Source: an uncultured Sunxiuqinia sp. (lineage in GTDB: Bacteria > Bacteroidota > Bacteroidia > Bacteroidales > Prolixibacteraceae). Taken from it: a stretch of DNA of 64,000 bases. A model generated the notes under the pieces. That model saw only the letters and a list, made by a program, of their open reading frames with translations. It was not told where the DNA came from and did no database searches. Of the stretch, positions 9,501 through 46,976 are shown one piece after another. Positions within the stretch are counted from its first letter, which is position 1. Each line of letters begins with the position of its first letter. Where the stretch lies: positions 124,001-188,000 of the forward strand of contig NZ_CANLZV010000007.1 in NCBI RefSeq assembly GCF_947495665.1, written 5' to 3'. The position numbers were made by a program, and so were the translations under genes.

Positions 9501-10370
9501 CACGTTTTTGGTGTAGTTGATCACCTCACGAAATCCGTTTTGAATCTCCCTGAATGAGTTGGCCAGTTCGCCAATCTCATTATTGGCCTGGATCGCCAGA
9601 TCGGCTGTAAGATCCCCCTTGGCAATCTCTCCAAATTTTTCAACCATTTCTTGCACTGGCTTGGTTATAGAGCGACTAATCCACTCGGATGCCGCAAATA
9701 CGATAACAACCAGCACTAGCACGATCAGCAAAATACCAGCCAACAACAAGTTATTTGCCATGGTATTTAAAGAAGAAATAGCTTGGGCAAAATCACCATA
9801 AAAGCCCCTCATTTGTGCCAAGTCGTCCGTAATTTCAGCTTTCGTTGCTTGGTCCGTGTTAAATCGGTAGGCCAACACTTCCTTTTGAATTTGCTCTCCC
9901 AGTTCATAGCCTCTTCGAGTGATTTGCTGAGCTTCATCCAACTTATCTGAATCAAGTGCCAATAGCAATTTAACCCGGCTTGCCATTAACACCGCATTTG
10001 AGCGATCATCATTATATGCCTCTCTATAGCAACTAAAAAGAGTATCAACAAATGCTTCACGGGGCAGTTGAGCCAGCTGCTCAATAGCAGCAAAATTCCG
10101 GGCCATCTGGTTGGCAGCTTCCATTTTCGCTACCGCCTGATTCCGCAACGCTTCATCATTCGAAATCTGGTAGCGATAAAAATCCTCGATACCTTCATGG
10201 AACACATTGTTATGCACCCGCTCTGCATTAATCATCAGATTAAGTGTTTTTCCTGTGTTGTAAAAAAAGTTGGAGATAAAGCCTAACACGATTAAACTTA
10301 GAATAGAAAAAAGACTCAGAAGCCGGAGTTTATTCCGAAGCTTCAGTCCGCTGAAGTTAGCCATGGTCAT
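6594..10370 (-). CDS. Large membrane hybrid histidine kinase (TM-HAMP-GAF-HisKA-HATPase-3 receivers)
   Basis: A 1258-residue sensor. TM1 lies near residues 15-37 and TM2 near 205-230, enclosing a helical extracytoplasmic domain. Then come HAMP (~231-285), GAF (~345-480), and a long coiled coil (~495-590) containing two copies of a 15-residue stretch with consensus LQVQQEELRVANEEL exactly 28 residues apart. HisKA follows with His597 in NMSHELRTPL, then HATPase (DSGVGIP, GGTGLGLSI) and three receiver-like modules. The first (~880-990) lacks acidic-pocket and acceptor residues. The second has Asp1044 (LDLGLPD) and the third Asp1188 (LMDVMMP). It is the first gene of the operon leading into the hybrid kinase, CheR and CheB. 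Met1 or Met3 could be the start. Confidence 0.93.
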   Translation of the reverse strand: MTMANFSGLKLRNKLRLLSLFSILSLIVLGFISNFFYNTGKTLNLMINAERVHNNVFHEGIEDFYRYQISNDEALRNQAVAKMEAANQMARNFAAIEQLAQLPREAFVDTLFSCYREAYNDDRSNAVLMASRVKLLLALDSDKLDEAQQITRRGYELGEQIQKEVLAYRFNTDQATKAEITDDLAQMRGFYGDFAQAISSLNTMANNLLLAGILLIVLVLVVIVFAASEWISRSITKPVQEMVEKFGEIAKGDLTADLAIQANNEIGELANSFREIQNGFREVINYTKNVANGNYSTQIVPRSSKDELSQALNKMVDELREAQERTAKDSWFNAGINSINEKLRGNQQPDEISSKALTFLMEFLHSQLGSIHMYDPDYKFLTLLSSSGFDPQKLKSKIKLNEGIIGQVAASGERVILNDIPDESYLTYSSSGQFKPSQVVVIPLLFNEILIGTLELSSLTAYTSLELDFLQQASKILSIYLNLSENVLKTNELLQKTQDQASELQVQQEELRVANEELLEHTKVLTDNEKKLQVQQEELRVANEELEERTRQLELQKEDISLKNNELIETHDQLEAKAKELQLASQYKSEFLANMSHELRTPLNSLLILSSLLSANKKGNLTEDQVQSAKIIHKSGADLLHLINEVLDLSKIEAGKMTVDMDFVQTIDLKEEVLMSFKATAEDKKLAFEVLIEAGFPNEIRTDRHRLMQVLKNLLSNAFKFTSQGQVAVYFMGSCPQTQFRSAGLQPENTCCIQVSDSGVGIPAEKLEAIFEAFQQADGSISRKFGGTGLGLSISRELIRMLGGEIQLESQVGKGSVFYVYLPVHAGMDAISEPVKFAQPKVANIQEASETIPVSHPISDPILTPFIDDDRNDSLNGQTVLVIHPSKAQAEKFLQQARAKDFRVIAAANIPDGIILAEKFHPKAIMLAVEFANTADADYQKLKTHRLLGKLPVHVITPIDYNESEEQGELKTLETIEFADALKSLDSHFASPLKRMLIVEDNAVTRSVIKTMLFDLDLEISEVEMAHEAFDLLSRETFDCVILDLGLPDYSGKALLEKLKEHKIAIPKVIVYTGKEMSQEEVRELNAYTDTIILKGIKSDERLMDEVTLFLHQVSRQIPGKKTKPAITNEEALFKGKKIMVVDDDIRNVFALGQILEEREIEVVDAENGQVAIDLLQEDPQVDLILMDVMMPVMDGYQAMHIIRNTPKIKDIPIICLTAKAMKEDHENALKNGANDYLSKPLDEGKLFSMLKIWLYRN

Positions 10371-22545: not shown

Positions 22546-22712
22546 AAATTGCTCCTTTCTTTTTTGGGAAATTACTGGTATTGAATACTCAGGCAGCACA
22601 CTTCTGCAACGAACAGGATTCGGAAAAGCAAGTAGAACCACCTGTTGAAAGCTTACCCCTCGTTTCCGAAAAAGTTACATGCCGGCAAGCTGCTTTCACC
22701 CAACAGCCCTTC

Positions 22713-22968
22713 CCTGTAAGCCCTTGAGGCGTCCTGTAAGCATCCGGGAAGCCCTGTAGCTTCTAAAGCCTCCCTGCGGCCTTGTCCCCTTCCCTGCTAC
22801 GCAGGATTACAAAATCTGACTACAGGGCCGGAAAAAACCCTGCAGGATTACAAAAAAAGCTTGCAGGACGACAAAAAAGGGCACAGGATCAGAAAAAAAC
22901 CTACAGGAACAGGGAAAAGACCTACAGGACAACCAGAAAAGCTACAGGACGGCTAAAGATTCCACAGG
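22713..22968. repeat. Head-to-head array of 14 phased CAGG motifs with phased A-tracts
   Basis: Left arm: five CCTG(T/C) motifs beginning at 22713, 22733, 22753, 22773 and 22793, exactly 20 bp apart. Right arm: nine inverted (A/G)CAGG motifs beginning at 22801, 22822, 22842, 22863, 22883, 22903, 22924, 22944 and 22964, 20 or 21 bp apart. The orientation switches around 22799. In the right arm each motif is followed by an A-tract (4-7 A) starting at 22811, 22832, 22852, 22873, 22893, 22915 and 22937, also phased at about two helical turns. The sequences between motifs are degenerate. The period is not a multiple of three, so it is not a coding repeat. It lies in the gap between two divergent genes. 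Confidence 0.85.
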
Positions 22969-42441: not shown

Positions 42442-43830
42442 ATGAAAGAATCAGCACAAACCCGATTCACCCCTCAAGCTACCCGGTCGATCTTAAAACA
42501 ATACCTCCCCTGTTTGCTTGTTGTTTTTTGCTTACTGGCACTCTCTTCAACTACCGCTTTGAGCCAGGATGCCCTGTTGAAACACGCGTATACCTTTGAG
42601 GATGGAACGGCCAATGACATTGTTGGCGAGGCACATGGCACCATTAATGGCGGAAAAATCATCAACGGGGAGTATGTTTCGTTTTCGCAAGGGCAGTTCA
42701 TCGTTCTGCCGGCCAATAAGATTGCGCTCAACAGCTATCCCGCGTTGAGCCTGGAAGCTTACCTGGGTGCCGGGCATCTGAATGCCTATTTCACCATGTT
42801 CTCCTACTTTGGAAATTCAGTGGGACCTCTCGGAACAAGCTACCTGTTTCAATCGCTGACCAACGGCGGACACAGCGCAACCGCCATATCGTGCAAGAAC
42901 GACCAGACCCCCTGGGCTACCTGCACCAATGTATTTGGTACGCCACTCGTAGATGCCAAATACCACCATGTGGTGAGCACCTTCGACAACCATGAAATGA
43001 AATTTTATGTGGATGGAATCTTAGTTGGGCAAAACACCATTGATGAGTTTCCCAACAATTCAATTGCCAACCTCAGCAACCAGTTCGCCTACCTGTGCAA
43101 ATCGGGCTATATGCAAGACCCCACCTGGTTTGGCACCATCGACCGTTTCAACATTTACGAGGGTGTTCTGGACGCCACCACCATTGCCGCTTCGGCTAAA
43201 AAATACCAGGCTGGCCTAAAAGACTTACCTGCGGAAATCAAAGCACTGCTCGCCAATGTCCTGGTCAATCCGGGATTTAAACCCGAAAGCGACTTGTCCG
43301 CAGACTTTCTGCAATCGTATAAGCCCGGCAAGTTTGTGGTTTACCCCACCGTTATTCGCACCCCTGATTCAACCGCTTTTTCGCCAGGCTCGGCCAAAGC
43401 TTTTGCCGACTTGCTGATAAACGATTTGCATTTAAATGCCGAATTCAACGAAACAATACTCAACCCGGGACAACTGGAAGGTCAGGGGCAGCTGAACTTC
43501 TTCAATAACGACATGAAACGGCTGGCCAGTGCCATTCGGGAAGAAGGAACAAATGCCGACTACTACGTGGTTTTGGAAATCCTGTTTCCTCCCCGGCAGT
43601 CTGAGGCAGTCAATGTTTTTGGCATTCATATCCTCGTTCTGGATAAGGATACAGAGAATGCTTTTTCGTTTTTACTGAATGCGCACCACGATTATATGGC
43701 CTACAACAGTTTGTGGGCAGTAAATGCTGAGCCGGCTAATTTAGAACCTCTGAAAATTAAATGTGCTAAAGTGGCTTTTGATGCCTTGTGCAAACAGCTT
43801 GAGTATGCTGAAAGTGCCATGGTAAAATAA
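42442..43830 (+). CDS. Secreted LamG-domain protein with unassigned C-terminal domain
   Basis: A 462-residue exported protein with a long N-terminal region and a hydrophobic signal core at ~22-40 (cut near ALSQ, 42). Residues ~45-250 form a LamG/concanavalin-like sandwich (HAYTFEDGTANDIVGEAHG, HHVVSTFDNHEMKFYVDG, TIDRFNIYEGVLD). The C-terminal ~260-460 part is a separate alpha/beta domain that I do not recognise; it has a ADYYVVLEILFPP stretch and resembles proteins that assess or bind another partner more than an enzyme. LamG modules bind carbohydrate or protein ligands. The gene is bracketed by palindromes P1 and P2. Confidence 0.8.
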   Translation: MKESAQTRFTPQATRSILKQYLPCLLVVFCLLALSSTTALSQDALLKHAYTFEDGTANDIVGEAHGTINGGKIINGEYVSFSQGQFIVLPANKIALNSYPALSLEAYLGAGHLNAYFTMFSYFGNSVGPLGTSYLFQSLTNGGHSATAISCKNDQTPWATCTNVFGTPLVDAKYHHVVSTFDNHEMKFYVDGILVGQNTIDEFPNNSIANLSNQFAYLCKSGYMQDPTWFGTIDRFNIYEGVLDATTIAASAKKYQAGLKDLPAEIKALLANVLVNPGFKPESDLSADFLQSYKPGKFVVYPTVIRTPDSTAFSPGSAKAFADLLINDLHLNAEFNETILNPGQLEGQGQLNFFNNDMKRLASAIREEGTNADYYVVLEILFPPRQSEAVNVFGIHILVLDKDTENAFSFLLNAHHDYMAYNSLWAVNAEPANLEPLKIKCAKVAFDALCKQLEYAESAMVK

Positions 43831-44113: not shown

Positions 44114-44755
44114 ATGAATCAAGATCAGAACAAACACATGCGTATGTACCTGGCTACGCAGACGGCGCTGGACAACCACACCCCGCGCTGGAACACCATT
44201 CCGGTAATGGTGACTGTGAAAAACGAGCTGGATGAACTGATCCAGCGTATTCAAGAAAAAAATGAAGAGACCGATGCCAACAGCAAAGGCACGACCGAGC
44301 AGAAAGAGACTGTTCGCCGAGGGGTGGCCGAAAAGGCGGTGAGCATCTCCGGCATTTTGCAGGCTTACGCCGCTTTTAACGACGACAAGGTGCTGGCCGG
44401 GCAGGCAAAGCTCATTAAATCGGACTTGTTAACCTGTCGCGAAACCGATGTGGAAGCAGCAATTCGCCCGGTTTTAACCCTGGCCCGTAACCTGCTTACC
44501 GAGCTGGCCGATTTTATGCTCACCGAAGCCATGGTGGTAGAAACCGAAACCAGCCTCGACAGCTTTAAAGCCCTGATCGGGCAGCCGCGTACCATCCGCA
44601 ACCAGGCCTTTTCGGCGATGAGCATGCTCGAAGAAATGATGGACCAAGTGGATGCCCTGCTGAAGCAAAAAATGGATAAGCTGATGATCCGTTTCGAATT
44701 TACCGATCAGCCTTTTTTCGAAGAATATACCCGGGCCCGGGTCATTGTTGACTGA
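44114..44755 (+). CDS. Helical protein of unknown function, upstream of the 21-bp array
   Basis: A 213-residue cytoplasmic protein predicted to be nearly all alpha-helix, with no signal peptide or membrane segment. The middle (~35-185) looks like a repeated four-helix arrangement with conserved-looking blocks (ETVRRGVAEKAVSISGILQAYAAFN; ARNLLTELADFM; GQPRTIRNQAFSAMSMLEEMMDQVDALL, read in pieces). It ends in FEEYTRARVIVD, a tail I recall from a Bacteroidota-specific family of uncharacterised proteins. Enzyme motifs are absent. The 14-unit 21-bp repeat array starts about 70 nt after the stop codon, so the gene and the array may form one unit. Confidence 0.8.
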   Translation: MNQDQNKHMRMYLATQTALDNHTPRWNTIPVMVTVKNELDELIQRIQEKNEETDANSKGTTEQKETVRRGVAEKAVSISGILQAYAAFNDDKVLAGQAKLIKSDLLTCRETDVEAAIRPVLTLARNLLTELADFMLTEAMVVETETSLDSFKALIGQPRTIRNQAFSAMSMLEEMMDQVDALLKQKMDKLMIRFEFTDQPFFEEYTRARVIVD

Positions 44756-44826
44756 ACCGGGGTATTGACGTTTACTTCTTGCAATCTTAAACCGGCAGCC
44801 GGGGAAACCTGGTTGCCGGTTGCTTT

Positions 44827-45125
44827 AAGCATACCGCCAAACAGCCAGAACAGCATACCCGATAGCCAGACGATGAAGCCAACTAGCCAGACCACCCCGG
44901 CTACCTGCCAGACGATGATGCCCGGCTGCCAGACGAACTCCGCGACTCGCCAGACGATGATGCCGAATAGCCAGACCAACTCCGCTACTCGCCAGACGAT
45001 GTCGCCGAACAGCCAGAACAAGCCGGCCGGGAGCCAGACGATGACACCAACCCTCCAGACGATGTTGGAGGAGCGCCAGACGGTGTCGCCAACCCTCCAG
45101 ACGCACTCGGCGAGGCGCCAGAACA
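44827..45125. repeat. 14-unit tandem array, exact 21-bp period
   Basis: The core GCCAGA(C/A)(G/C) (first base T in two units) occurs 14 times; its CCAGA begins at 44845 and then every 21 bp up to 45118 with no insertion or deletion. Each 8-bp core is separated by a 13-bp variable segment. Higher-order pairing is visible: units 5-6 and 7-8 are near copies 42 bp apart, and units 11 and 13 share their variable segment in large part. It is not CRISPR (repeat and spacer too short). Both strands are open in several frames because the unit lacks stops, but none of the frames starts with ATG, so I treat it as non-coding. Confidence 0.9.
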
Positions 45126-45308
45126 TCGGCAGGACGCGGGAAGCAGGGGAAACGACCTGAATTGGGATACCGGGCAGGTGATCAAGAAAAGAGCCATTCC
45201 CCTGGGGACTGGAAAAAGAAAGTCTTTGGTCGGAGGTAAAATGAGTTACAAACTCCAAACAGCTAGCCCCTGCTTACCGATTCGCTCATACAACAGGAAA
45301 ACGGGCAA

Positions 45309-45422: not shown

Positions 45423-46976
45423 ATGAAAAACTATTTATTCGCGGCCTTGATGGTAGTCCTAACAATTTCCTCAACAAATGCTCAAGATGTTTATGTGAGA
45501 TTAGATGTTGCAGGATCTGCCTTAAAGAAGATCTCAAAGGACATCCAGGAAGGAGATCAATTTGAAGCTCTCATTTTAAAAGGGATGGCAGACAACACGT
45601 CAAACTCAGGATATCCTACAAGAAAAAATGTGGTTTCTGTGATAAAAACAAATGGAGAAGTTTTAGACTTTGACTATTCTAAAAAGTTTGAGGAGGACTT
45701 AAATCTCACCATTACTCCAGAATCATTCTGGACAGTTAAAGCCCTACAAGCCAGAGTCTACAACGACATCATTGAAGCAGGATTTCAATACGATGTCAGA
45801 AATTACCTGGAGGAAGAGAGTCTTGATTATCTGAGTTACCTCAGTAATCAGGATGCCTTTGTAAACGATGCAGTTATCAAAGACTATCTCCAAAGCATCT
45901 TCCTAAAAATATATCAAAAACCTATAAACGATGGGCGGCTTGGCCAGTTAGATATCCGAATCCTAAAAAACAATGAGCCCTATGCTGCGATACTTCCAAA
46001 TGGAACAGCTTTAATATCAATTGGCTTGCTAAACCTGGTTAATACAGAAGAGGAATTAACCGCTGTTCTTGCTCATGAAACGGCACACTTTATTTTGGAT
46101 CATGCTGTCAAGAATATAAATCTTGAACTAAAAAAACAGAAGCGGGCTGAATTCTGGGCAGGCGTGACATCCGTTGCTGTTGCAGCTACGGCCACGTATG
46201 CTTCGGTAAACCATGACATATACGTTGATCCATCGATAATTTCAACCTCAGCTGCTTTAGCTTATACGATTTCATCACAAATTAGCGAAAGAGTGGGGTT
46301 AAAATATTCGCGAGAGCAGGAAATGGCTGCTGATAACTGTGCGGCAGAACTTATGGAATATCTGGGTTACAATAAAGACGCTTTAGGCTCAGTCTTGTCG
46401 AAGCTAAAAGACTATTATTACTATACTGGCAATTTTAAAGTCTTTTCAGACGAAGGCACACATCCAAACATTAGTTATCGCATTGAAAACGTAGGAATTC
46501 CGGAAATTGAATATCGTGACACCGATTTCGATAAGAAAATTTCAGACTTACTAACTCAAGGTGCATATTATGAATATAGCAAGAGTCACTTCCAGACCTG
46601 TGAAAAGCTGTTGTGGCGTAATATTAAATCAGGTGCTGCAACAGAAGAAGACTACATCCTTATGGCGTTGGTAAATTTGGCCCAGTATAACACAAGCGAA
46701 AAATATGCAGAATCTCTTAATTTTTTAGAAAAAGCGAATCAATTGGGTATAAATCCAGACTACCAGACTTTCAAAGTTGAATCCTTAATCCATTTAAGAA
46801 AGAATGATGAATTGGCAGCGATCAATGCACTTTCTCGTTATCAGACAGAATTACAAGAACATTTAAACAGTATTGATCTAAATTTATTGACCTCTAATAA
46901 CTGGATGGACTTAAATAGTCGTTTAAATGACGAACTCATATGGACAAAGAAAATGTTGTTTAAAATGAAGAAATAG
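45423..46976 (+). CDS. Secreted M48-family zinc metalloprotease
   Basis: A 517-residue protein with a signal peptide (cut after SSTNAQ, ~21). The zinc site is HETAH at 218-222, with the third ligand in the REQEMAADNCAAELM segment about 85 residues later, as in M48 peptidases of the BepA/YfgC type. Between them is a small hydrophobic stretch. The C-terminal ~160 residues are helical and TPR-like. In other Gram-negatives such proteins act in the periplasm on outer-membrane assembly intermediates. It is visibly AT-richer than neighbours and stands alone between a REP-like element and palindrome P3, consistent with later acquisition. Confidence 0.88.
   Translation: MKNYLFAALMVVLTISSTNAQDVYVRLDVAGSALKKISKDIQEGDQFEALILKGMADNTSNSGYPTRKNVVSVIKTNGEVLDFDYSKKFEEDLNLTITPESFWTVKALQARVYNDIIEAGFQYDVRNYLEEESLDYLSYLSNQDAFVNDAVIKDYLQSIFLKIYQKPINDGRLGQLDIRILKNNEPYAAILPNGTALISIGLLNLVNTEEELTAVLAHETAHFILDHAVKNINLELKKQKRAEFWAGVTSVAVAATATYASVNHDIYVDPSIISTSAALAYTISSQISERVGLKYSREQEMAADNCAAELMEYLGYNKDALGSVLSKLKDYYYYTGNFKVFSDEGTHPNISYRIENVGIPEIEYRDTDFDKKISDLLTQGAYYEYSKSHFQTCEKLLWRNIKSGAATEEDYILMALVNLAQYNTSEKYAESLNFLEKANQLGINPDYQTFKVESLIHLRKNDELAAINALSRYQTELQEHLNSIDLNLLTSNNWMDLNSRLNDELIWTKKMLFKMKK

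Follow-up and report, generated by a model that had tools for sequence, protein, structure and literature searches.

The array and its neighboring gene

The question raised by this locus is what a strictly phased array of short direct repeats does beside a gene for a small, apparently helical protein. In the window (the whole 64-kb stretch of DNA analyzed here), the pentamer CCAGA occurs 70 times on the + strand, and 14 of these copies, with starts at 44845, 44866 and so on to 45118, are separated by 13 steps of exactly 21 bp; the original prediction of an exact 14-unit array in 21-bp phase with no insertion or deletion is thus correct. The array as a whole occupies 44844–45137 (+ strand, 14 units of exactly 21 bp), and TRF likewise detects 21/42-bp arrays at this site. 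Its core sequence GCCAGAC is exact in nine of the 14 units, with GCCAGAA in three and TCCAGAC in two. The original division of each unit into such a core and 13 variable bp stands only in part; the core is present, but the best-kept columns across the 14 arrays that lie downstream of their genes (see below) are A..AC.AA, and these overlap the right end of the core and extend into the segment that had been called variable. The "8-bp core" is only the lineage-specific, homogenized part of the motif. Units 5–6 and 7–8 form two near-identical 42-bp doublets (44928–45011, + strand; different at 5 of 42 bases, lag-42 identity 0.75), and similar doublets are common among the related arrays, in agreement with the earlier suggestion of growth by duplication. 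The right-hand end of the array (45118–45156, + strand) is held in common with a second array on contig C4 of the same genome; 45123–45156 is 91% identical over 34 bp to bp 9850–9883 of that stretch (L115).

The adjacent gene (44114–44755, + strand) encodes a 213 amino acid protein that is predicted to be all-helical. The AlphaFold2 model contains only helices (mean pLDDT 88.7, pTM 0.54), and a similar layout was predicted from another alignment, headed by the relative L018 (pLDDT 91.6, pTM 0.58). A terminator-like hairpin, read from the sequence as AACCGGCAGCC...GGTTGCCGGTT, lies between gene and array at 44790–44821 (+ strand). The protein belongs to an unnamed Bacteroidota family that is absent from the libraries searched. 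The window protein has no Pfam family above the cut-off, and Pfam, NCBIfam, PHROGs, and PADLOC yielded no more than isolated weak matches, none of them in more than two of the 30 or 51 family members scanned and none to a transposase. The PDB contains no sequence match better than E 0.12, and no fold in the PDB or BFVD matches at E 0.001 or better. Family genes are under purifying selection (approximate dN/dS 0.09–0.14 for the window gene against three relatives and 0.05–0.20 for 11 pairs within the family), and their products are mostly acidic (median pI 5.35, with pI above 7 in 17 of 71).

Homologs are present in 46 of 120 genomes of the same taxonomic family and in 17 of 395 and 23 of 392 genomes in two overlapping samples of the phylum. 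The genome of the window itself has two clear paralogs (31 and 29% identical to the window protein), each with a 21-bp array of differing sequence, which lies upstream of the gene rather than downstream as in the window. A plasmid or phage origin is not supported; the window protein has no match in 72,556 plasmid records and no phage match. The window lies on a 264-kb contig, and the relatives L008, L014, and L015 are on chromosome-sized contigs of 4.9–6.2 Mb. The neighbors of the window gene are a LamG-like gene (42442–43830) and an M48 peptidase gene (45423–46976). Among seven genomes of the genus the former is matched only in its own, and the latter is matched in six, outside its own genome only weakly (E 1e-4 or worse). 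Since neither neighbor has a true ortholog in this genus sample, no empty insertion site can be demonstrated, and the locus may lie within an accessory region.

Arrays at homologous loci

The original prediction tied the array to the helical-protein gene, and comparison of homologous loci bears this out. Of the 79 gene loci compared, 65 have a 21- or 42-bp array signal, and among 400 control segments 4 reach it by the same measure (identity of at least 0.55 at a lag of 21 or 42 bp over 126 bp, anywhere in loci of mostly 3.6 kb; the controls are 3.6-kb segments); at another threshold the counts are 49 of 59 loci and 4 of 100 control segments. The 79 loci, which are phylogenetically non-independent, comprise 32 from the source genome and a search of its taxonomic family, 27 from the phylum sample of 395 genomes, and 20 further matches from the taxonomic family. 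By a maximal-segment score 66 arrays were delineated, 52 upstream and 14 downstream of the gene, and the latter all belong to close relatives of the window gene. The median distance between gene and array is 198 bp for the upstream type and 92.5 bp for the downstream type, and the arrays have a median length of 11.7 units (range 5.9–27). One locus (L161) was counted as positive with its array partly masked and was excluded from the array statistics. In L038 a second array, of period 22, lies downstream of the gene, on the opposite side from its 21-bp array.

Fourteen of the 79 loci fall below the threshold. At two of these (L022 and L058) the match starts at a contig edge and the upstream side is missing, L046, L048, and L049 are partial matches and L051 a marginal one, and in L003, L063, and L037 arrays are visible by eye or by a second measure (spacing is a mixture of 20 and 21 bp in L037 and L046). 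Four loci, L016, L044, L166, and L177, have a full-length match and full flanks with no detectable array. Two genes are interrupted by a stop codon. L028, the last of the 14 loci below the threshold, retains only an array remnant, and its counterpart L020, 81–83% identical around it, has an intact array; in L025, on the other hand, the array is retained. With a locus of the DUF6261 family discussed below (L292, a stop in the gene and no array), there are two cases for and one against a joint decay of gene and array, which is too little to argue from.

The period is far better conserved than the sequence. When each of 62 arrays was scanned with its own profile, successive units were 21 bp apart in 606 of 647 spacings, 634 were multiples of 21, and none was 20 or 22 bp, though these arrays had been preselected by their 21/42-bp lag and are thereby biased towards 21. 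This set is the 66 delineated arrays minus L025, L050, L059, and L060, whose proteins are short or contain a stop; exceptions seen by eye include a 1-bp shift in L025 and the mixed spacing of L037. The core, on the other hand, differs by lineage (GCCAGAC, GTTGGAAC, GAAACGA, and others). The earlier proposal that the phase is under constraint agrees with a 21-bp period kept across the phylum despite the sequence differences. The less similar two proteins are, the less similar their arrays tend to be (Mantel r 0.53; none of 2000 permutations as high). L007 and L010 are 87–89% identical to L160 in the upstream flank and 82–83% in the gene, yet little of the array can be aligned, which indicates that the arrays turn over. 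The strand of the array relative to the gene is mostly kept, with 30 same-strand and two reverse pairs at a similarity of at least 0.6 among 48 arrays. For L032 and L040, similarity to other arrays appears only when the reverse strand is compared, which would fit an array inverted relative to its gene.

Orphan arrays, divergent homologs, and DUF6261

Arrays with the same core also occur apart from family genes. Two GCCAGAC motifs 21 bp apart, used as a search pattern, match 11 times in the source genome. Six of these matches fall in the window array and the other five on contig C4. The pattern matched in seven of 120 genomes (several times each in G000, G023, and G048, and once each in G007, G044, G052, and G058). 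Seven such orphan arrays with matching cores were collected, on contigs C4 and C28 of the source genome (G000), C66 and C169 of G023, and C24, C3, and C89 of G048. A tblastn search of the orphan stretches with three family proteins found no family gene; the top-scoring hit (E 0.002) covers 61 residues within a different gene. The orphan on C28 was found with the array of L164, resembles that of L003 by eye, and appears by eye to be followed by a terminator-like hairpin. In G048, the orphan on C24 and a gene-linked array on C22 align over 486 bp at 92% identity, with differing flanks and, by eye, hairpin-like ends. The C3 and C89 orphans seem by eye to have their leading units in common, and the flank that follows the C3 array is also found at the gene-linked L164.

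Three intergenic 21-bp arrays with no recognizable family gene alongside (L070, 3574–3871; L080, 15915–16274; L083, 14445–14791) are possibly further orphans. A different type of array, with CCTGYA-type repeats about 21 bp apart that by eye flip to their reverse complement, TRCAGG, near the center, was seen in three genomes (22700–22960 in the window, 16811–16961 in L071, and 12654–12815 in L192), and no family gene was seen beside the first two. A count of dispersed 21-bp arrays found four places in 456 kb of the source genome, namely the window array, the C4 stretch (which had been fetched for its array), window position 22801, and a site upstream of a DUF6261 gene. Two samples of 400 kb from genomes with the gene contained four and one, and 400 kb from six genomes with no family match contained none, with one, of low complexity, in a further 400 kb of one of these; a general link between dispersed arrays and presence of the gene is too weak to use.

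Weak profile matches led to divergent, mostly longer proteins, eight of which, aligned as a group, match the family by hhalign with a probability of 97.6% (E 4e-12). Two of the four scanned have weak Fn3-type matches, below the cut-off, in their C-terminal parts. A 21-bp array is present at 11 of 14 distinct places with such homologs, and these 11 include a fourth family member in the source genome, on contig C1, and two places already among the 79 loci. The array of L255 is weak, that of L254 lies about 2.3 kb from the gene, and L243, L247, and L249 have no 21-bp array. One divergent homolog weakly matches DUF6261 (E 0.071, below the cut-off).

DUF6261 (PF19775), with seven genes in the source genome, turned out to have arrays of its own. 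The 42 loci examined (L258–L299) come from the source genome and from a further search that listed about 100 matches, and in 27 of them the best lag is 41 or 42 bp, always on the upstream side, against 6 of 400 controls at lags of 41–43; the count of 27 holds for an unrounded threshold of 0.55, and rounded scores give 30 (42 bp in 19, 41 in 10, and 43 in one). A lag of 21 reaches 0.5 in only one of the 42 loci. Some DUF6261 array units contain inverted repeats, and of the ten arrays that could be folded, five reach a z of at most −3 on one strand or both. One DUF6261 gene in the source genome (L269, contig C7 at about 84646) has two arrays, one of 41 bp and, at a greater distance upstream, one of 21 bp. 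The searches do not place the 21-bp family in DUF6261; none of the 51 members of the family alignment matches PF19775 at E 0.01, hhalign probabilities are only 4.9% and 7.6%, and the best E value is the 0.071 noted above. Both families occur in Bacteroidota and have similar-sized proteins with an array adjoining the gene, but they differ in period (41 or 42 bp against 21) and in the inverted repeats within some DUF6261 units. The period thus goes with the protein family. The strongest single point in favor of a period set by the protein, or by something linked to it, is that each of the two families has kept one of its own.

Possible roles of the arrays

We suggest, with a probability of roughly 0.45, that the array offers its cognate protein a phased platform of nucleic acid, most likely duplex DNA. 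The two-part locus would combine a non-coding array of 21-bp direct repeats with a gene whose product is small, predicted to be all-helical, and in most cases acidic. Since 21 bp is two turns of B-DNA, the repeated cores would fall on one face of the helix, where protomers or dimers could dock side by side to build a regular nucleoprotein assembly. Through orphan arrays that have its core, a single protein could work in trans at several genomic sites. Within each array the units are homogenized, apparently through duplication of 21- and 42-bp blocks, which would let the core sequence change in step with the protein even as the period stays fixed. Candidate outputs of such a platform include autoregulation, local organization of the chromosome, and upkeep of an element. 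A phased DNA platform is chosen because of the two B-DNA turns, the exact spacing, the lack of a reading frame or fold, and the position of the window array beyond the likely terminator of its gene. The association with the gene (65/79 against 4/400), the Mantel correlation of 0.53, the orphans, and the separate DUF6261 period also count for it. Binding itself, the choice of DNA over RNA, and oligomerization are what we infer from these patterns. Against it are the mostly acidic proteins with no match to a known fold, the four full loci with no array, the dispersed arrays with no gene, and L025, whose gene contains a stop codon but whose array is kept. In addition, the 41-bp period of DUF6261 is 3.9 helical turns and so not exactly in phase, the strong folds in five of the ten DUF6261 arrays folded would suit RNA, and DNA sites alone would not require the array strand to be kept.

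The mostly kept strand would suit an array that is transcribed and whose RNA, with about 12 similar unstructured binding stretches, acts as a scaffold or sponge for the helical protein, which we consider an unlikely explanation but one to be taken seriously. The strong folding of some DUF6261 arrays and the apparent terminator after the C28 orphan fit such an RNA, as does the sense strand of 44 of 66 arrays, which is richer in A than in T (binomial p 0.009), though the same holds for 40 of 64 gene-array spacers. Against such an RNA, gene and array are separated by a terminator-like site at 10 of the 14 downstream-array loci, the window among them (shuffled mean 0.0), and at none of the 14 does one come after the array; a site in this position speaks against the arrays of the window's clade serving simply as 3′ UTRs. 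Among the 52 upstream arrays, such sites precede the gene in five cases on each strand, against 19 that follow it, and precede the array in six on the sense and five on the antisense strand (shuffled 0.8–1.5). To judge from sequence, there is little support for a separate array transcript. Promoter-like sites were predicted before four of the 52 arrays, though the scan is insensitive, finding them before only seven of the 52 genes; this and the strand composition are weak as evidence. The 21-bp arrays themselves have no fold signal (mean z 0.08 and −0.01 on the two strands of 48 arrays, against a null of permuted unit columns), none of nine loci scanned matches an Rfam family at E 0.5, and a structured regulatory RNA was rejected on these grounds. 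Nor is there a clear need for a spacing of exactly 21 in flexible RNA.

A somewhat less probable idea is that the array is a mobile, non-autonomous element whose copying or upkeep is aided by the helical protein, with the orphans as its copies. The 92% identical C22 and C24 arrays in differing flanks, with their hairpin-like ends, and the apparently common leading units of C3 and C89 and trailing flank of C3 and L164 would fit such copying, but the protein matches no transposase, only one or two orphans were found per core, and no target-site duplication is shown. Neutral minisatellites that arise by chance near these genes would explain why arrays are homogenized, turn over (as in L007/L010 and L160), and exist where there is no gene; the enrichment at gene loci, a period exact throughout the phylum, and a different period at DUF6261 make this quite improbable. 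As 21 is a multiple of three, and both strands of the window array contain open frames, it might also encode a heptad-repeat protein (seven codons per unit). This we regard as very improbable indeed, and a coding repeat was rejected, since a sense frame is open in 23 of 48 arrays (19.2 ± 2.9 expected from permutation of unit columns) and an antisense frame in 20 (21.2 ± 3.0 expected), 19 have stops in all six frames, and ten DUF6261 arrays have a 41-bp period. The coding, fold, and strand tests were run on 48 arrays, those among the first 59 loci with a score above a more stringent limit. The outcomes set at the start as counting against the original prediction, a conserved reading frame or the absence of arrays beside homologs of the 213 amino acid protein, were thus not found.

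The phased platform has partial parallels among known systems. Iteron arrays of plasmids are direct repeats about two helical turns apart beside the gene for their cognate Rep protein, with further copies in trans, and the present array is like them in its spacing, in its position beside a gene, and in having copies elsewhere. Unlike Rep, the family protein is not a replication protein by family or fold, the window protein is unmatched in the plasmid records, and several paralogs with different cores occur in one genome. An iteron-Rep replicon was rejected because the weak Pfam, NCBIfam, and PHROGs matches include no replication family and no PDB fold matches at E 0.001; iteron-type arrays are the nearest working analogy, and membership fails on the protein. 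At partition sites such as parC/ParR, centromere-binding proteins assemble a higher-order nucleoprotein complex on a direct-repeat array. Here too a gene for a short protein adjoins such an array, and a comparable complex may form, but the protein matches no known fold and no motor-protein partner was seen in an unsystematic look at the neighboring genes. REP sequences with RAYT genes are gene-linked repeats that also have copies elsewhere in the genome, as here; they are single palindromes rather than phased direct arrays, and the present protein has no transposase match. A CRISPR array was rejected, since the 21-bp units are similar over their whole length and the repeats diverge, the nine loci have no Rfam match, and neither of the two neighboring genes scanned belongs to a Cas family. 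The TAACTGA repeats of Beggiatoaceae are likewise intergenic direct repeats, but they are heptamers in another group of bacteria, and the accessible part of that report mentions no linked helical-protein gene (PMC4679880). The titles and opening lines of abstracts that were searched contain nothing on such arrays, and the one paper naming DUF6261 concerns, in its accessible part, Streptococcus (PMC10376253). That no known feature type fits, as was proposed at the outset, agrees with the lack of a matching library family. The usual presence of an array beside the family gene suggests a two-part protein-and-array system, of which the libraries and literature searched yielded no description.

It is conceivable, if rather doubtful, that self-contained nucleoprotein-array loci form a general class in Bacteroidota. 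Small proteins would there assemble on repeat arrays whose period is set by the family (21 bp here, 41–42 bp in DUF6261), with fast-evolving cores, several specificities per genome, and orphans as docking sites in trans; such loci would be a bacterial counterpart of satellite or centromere DNA with its co-evolving binding protein. The present analysis ties an unnamed protein family and the named but uncharacterized DUF6261 to phased arrays that are undescribed in the libraries and literature searched. If the protein binds its own array and the period matters, these loci would amount to a bacterial protein-array system of a new type, in which a single cell has several independent specificities.
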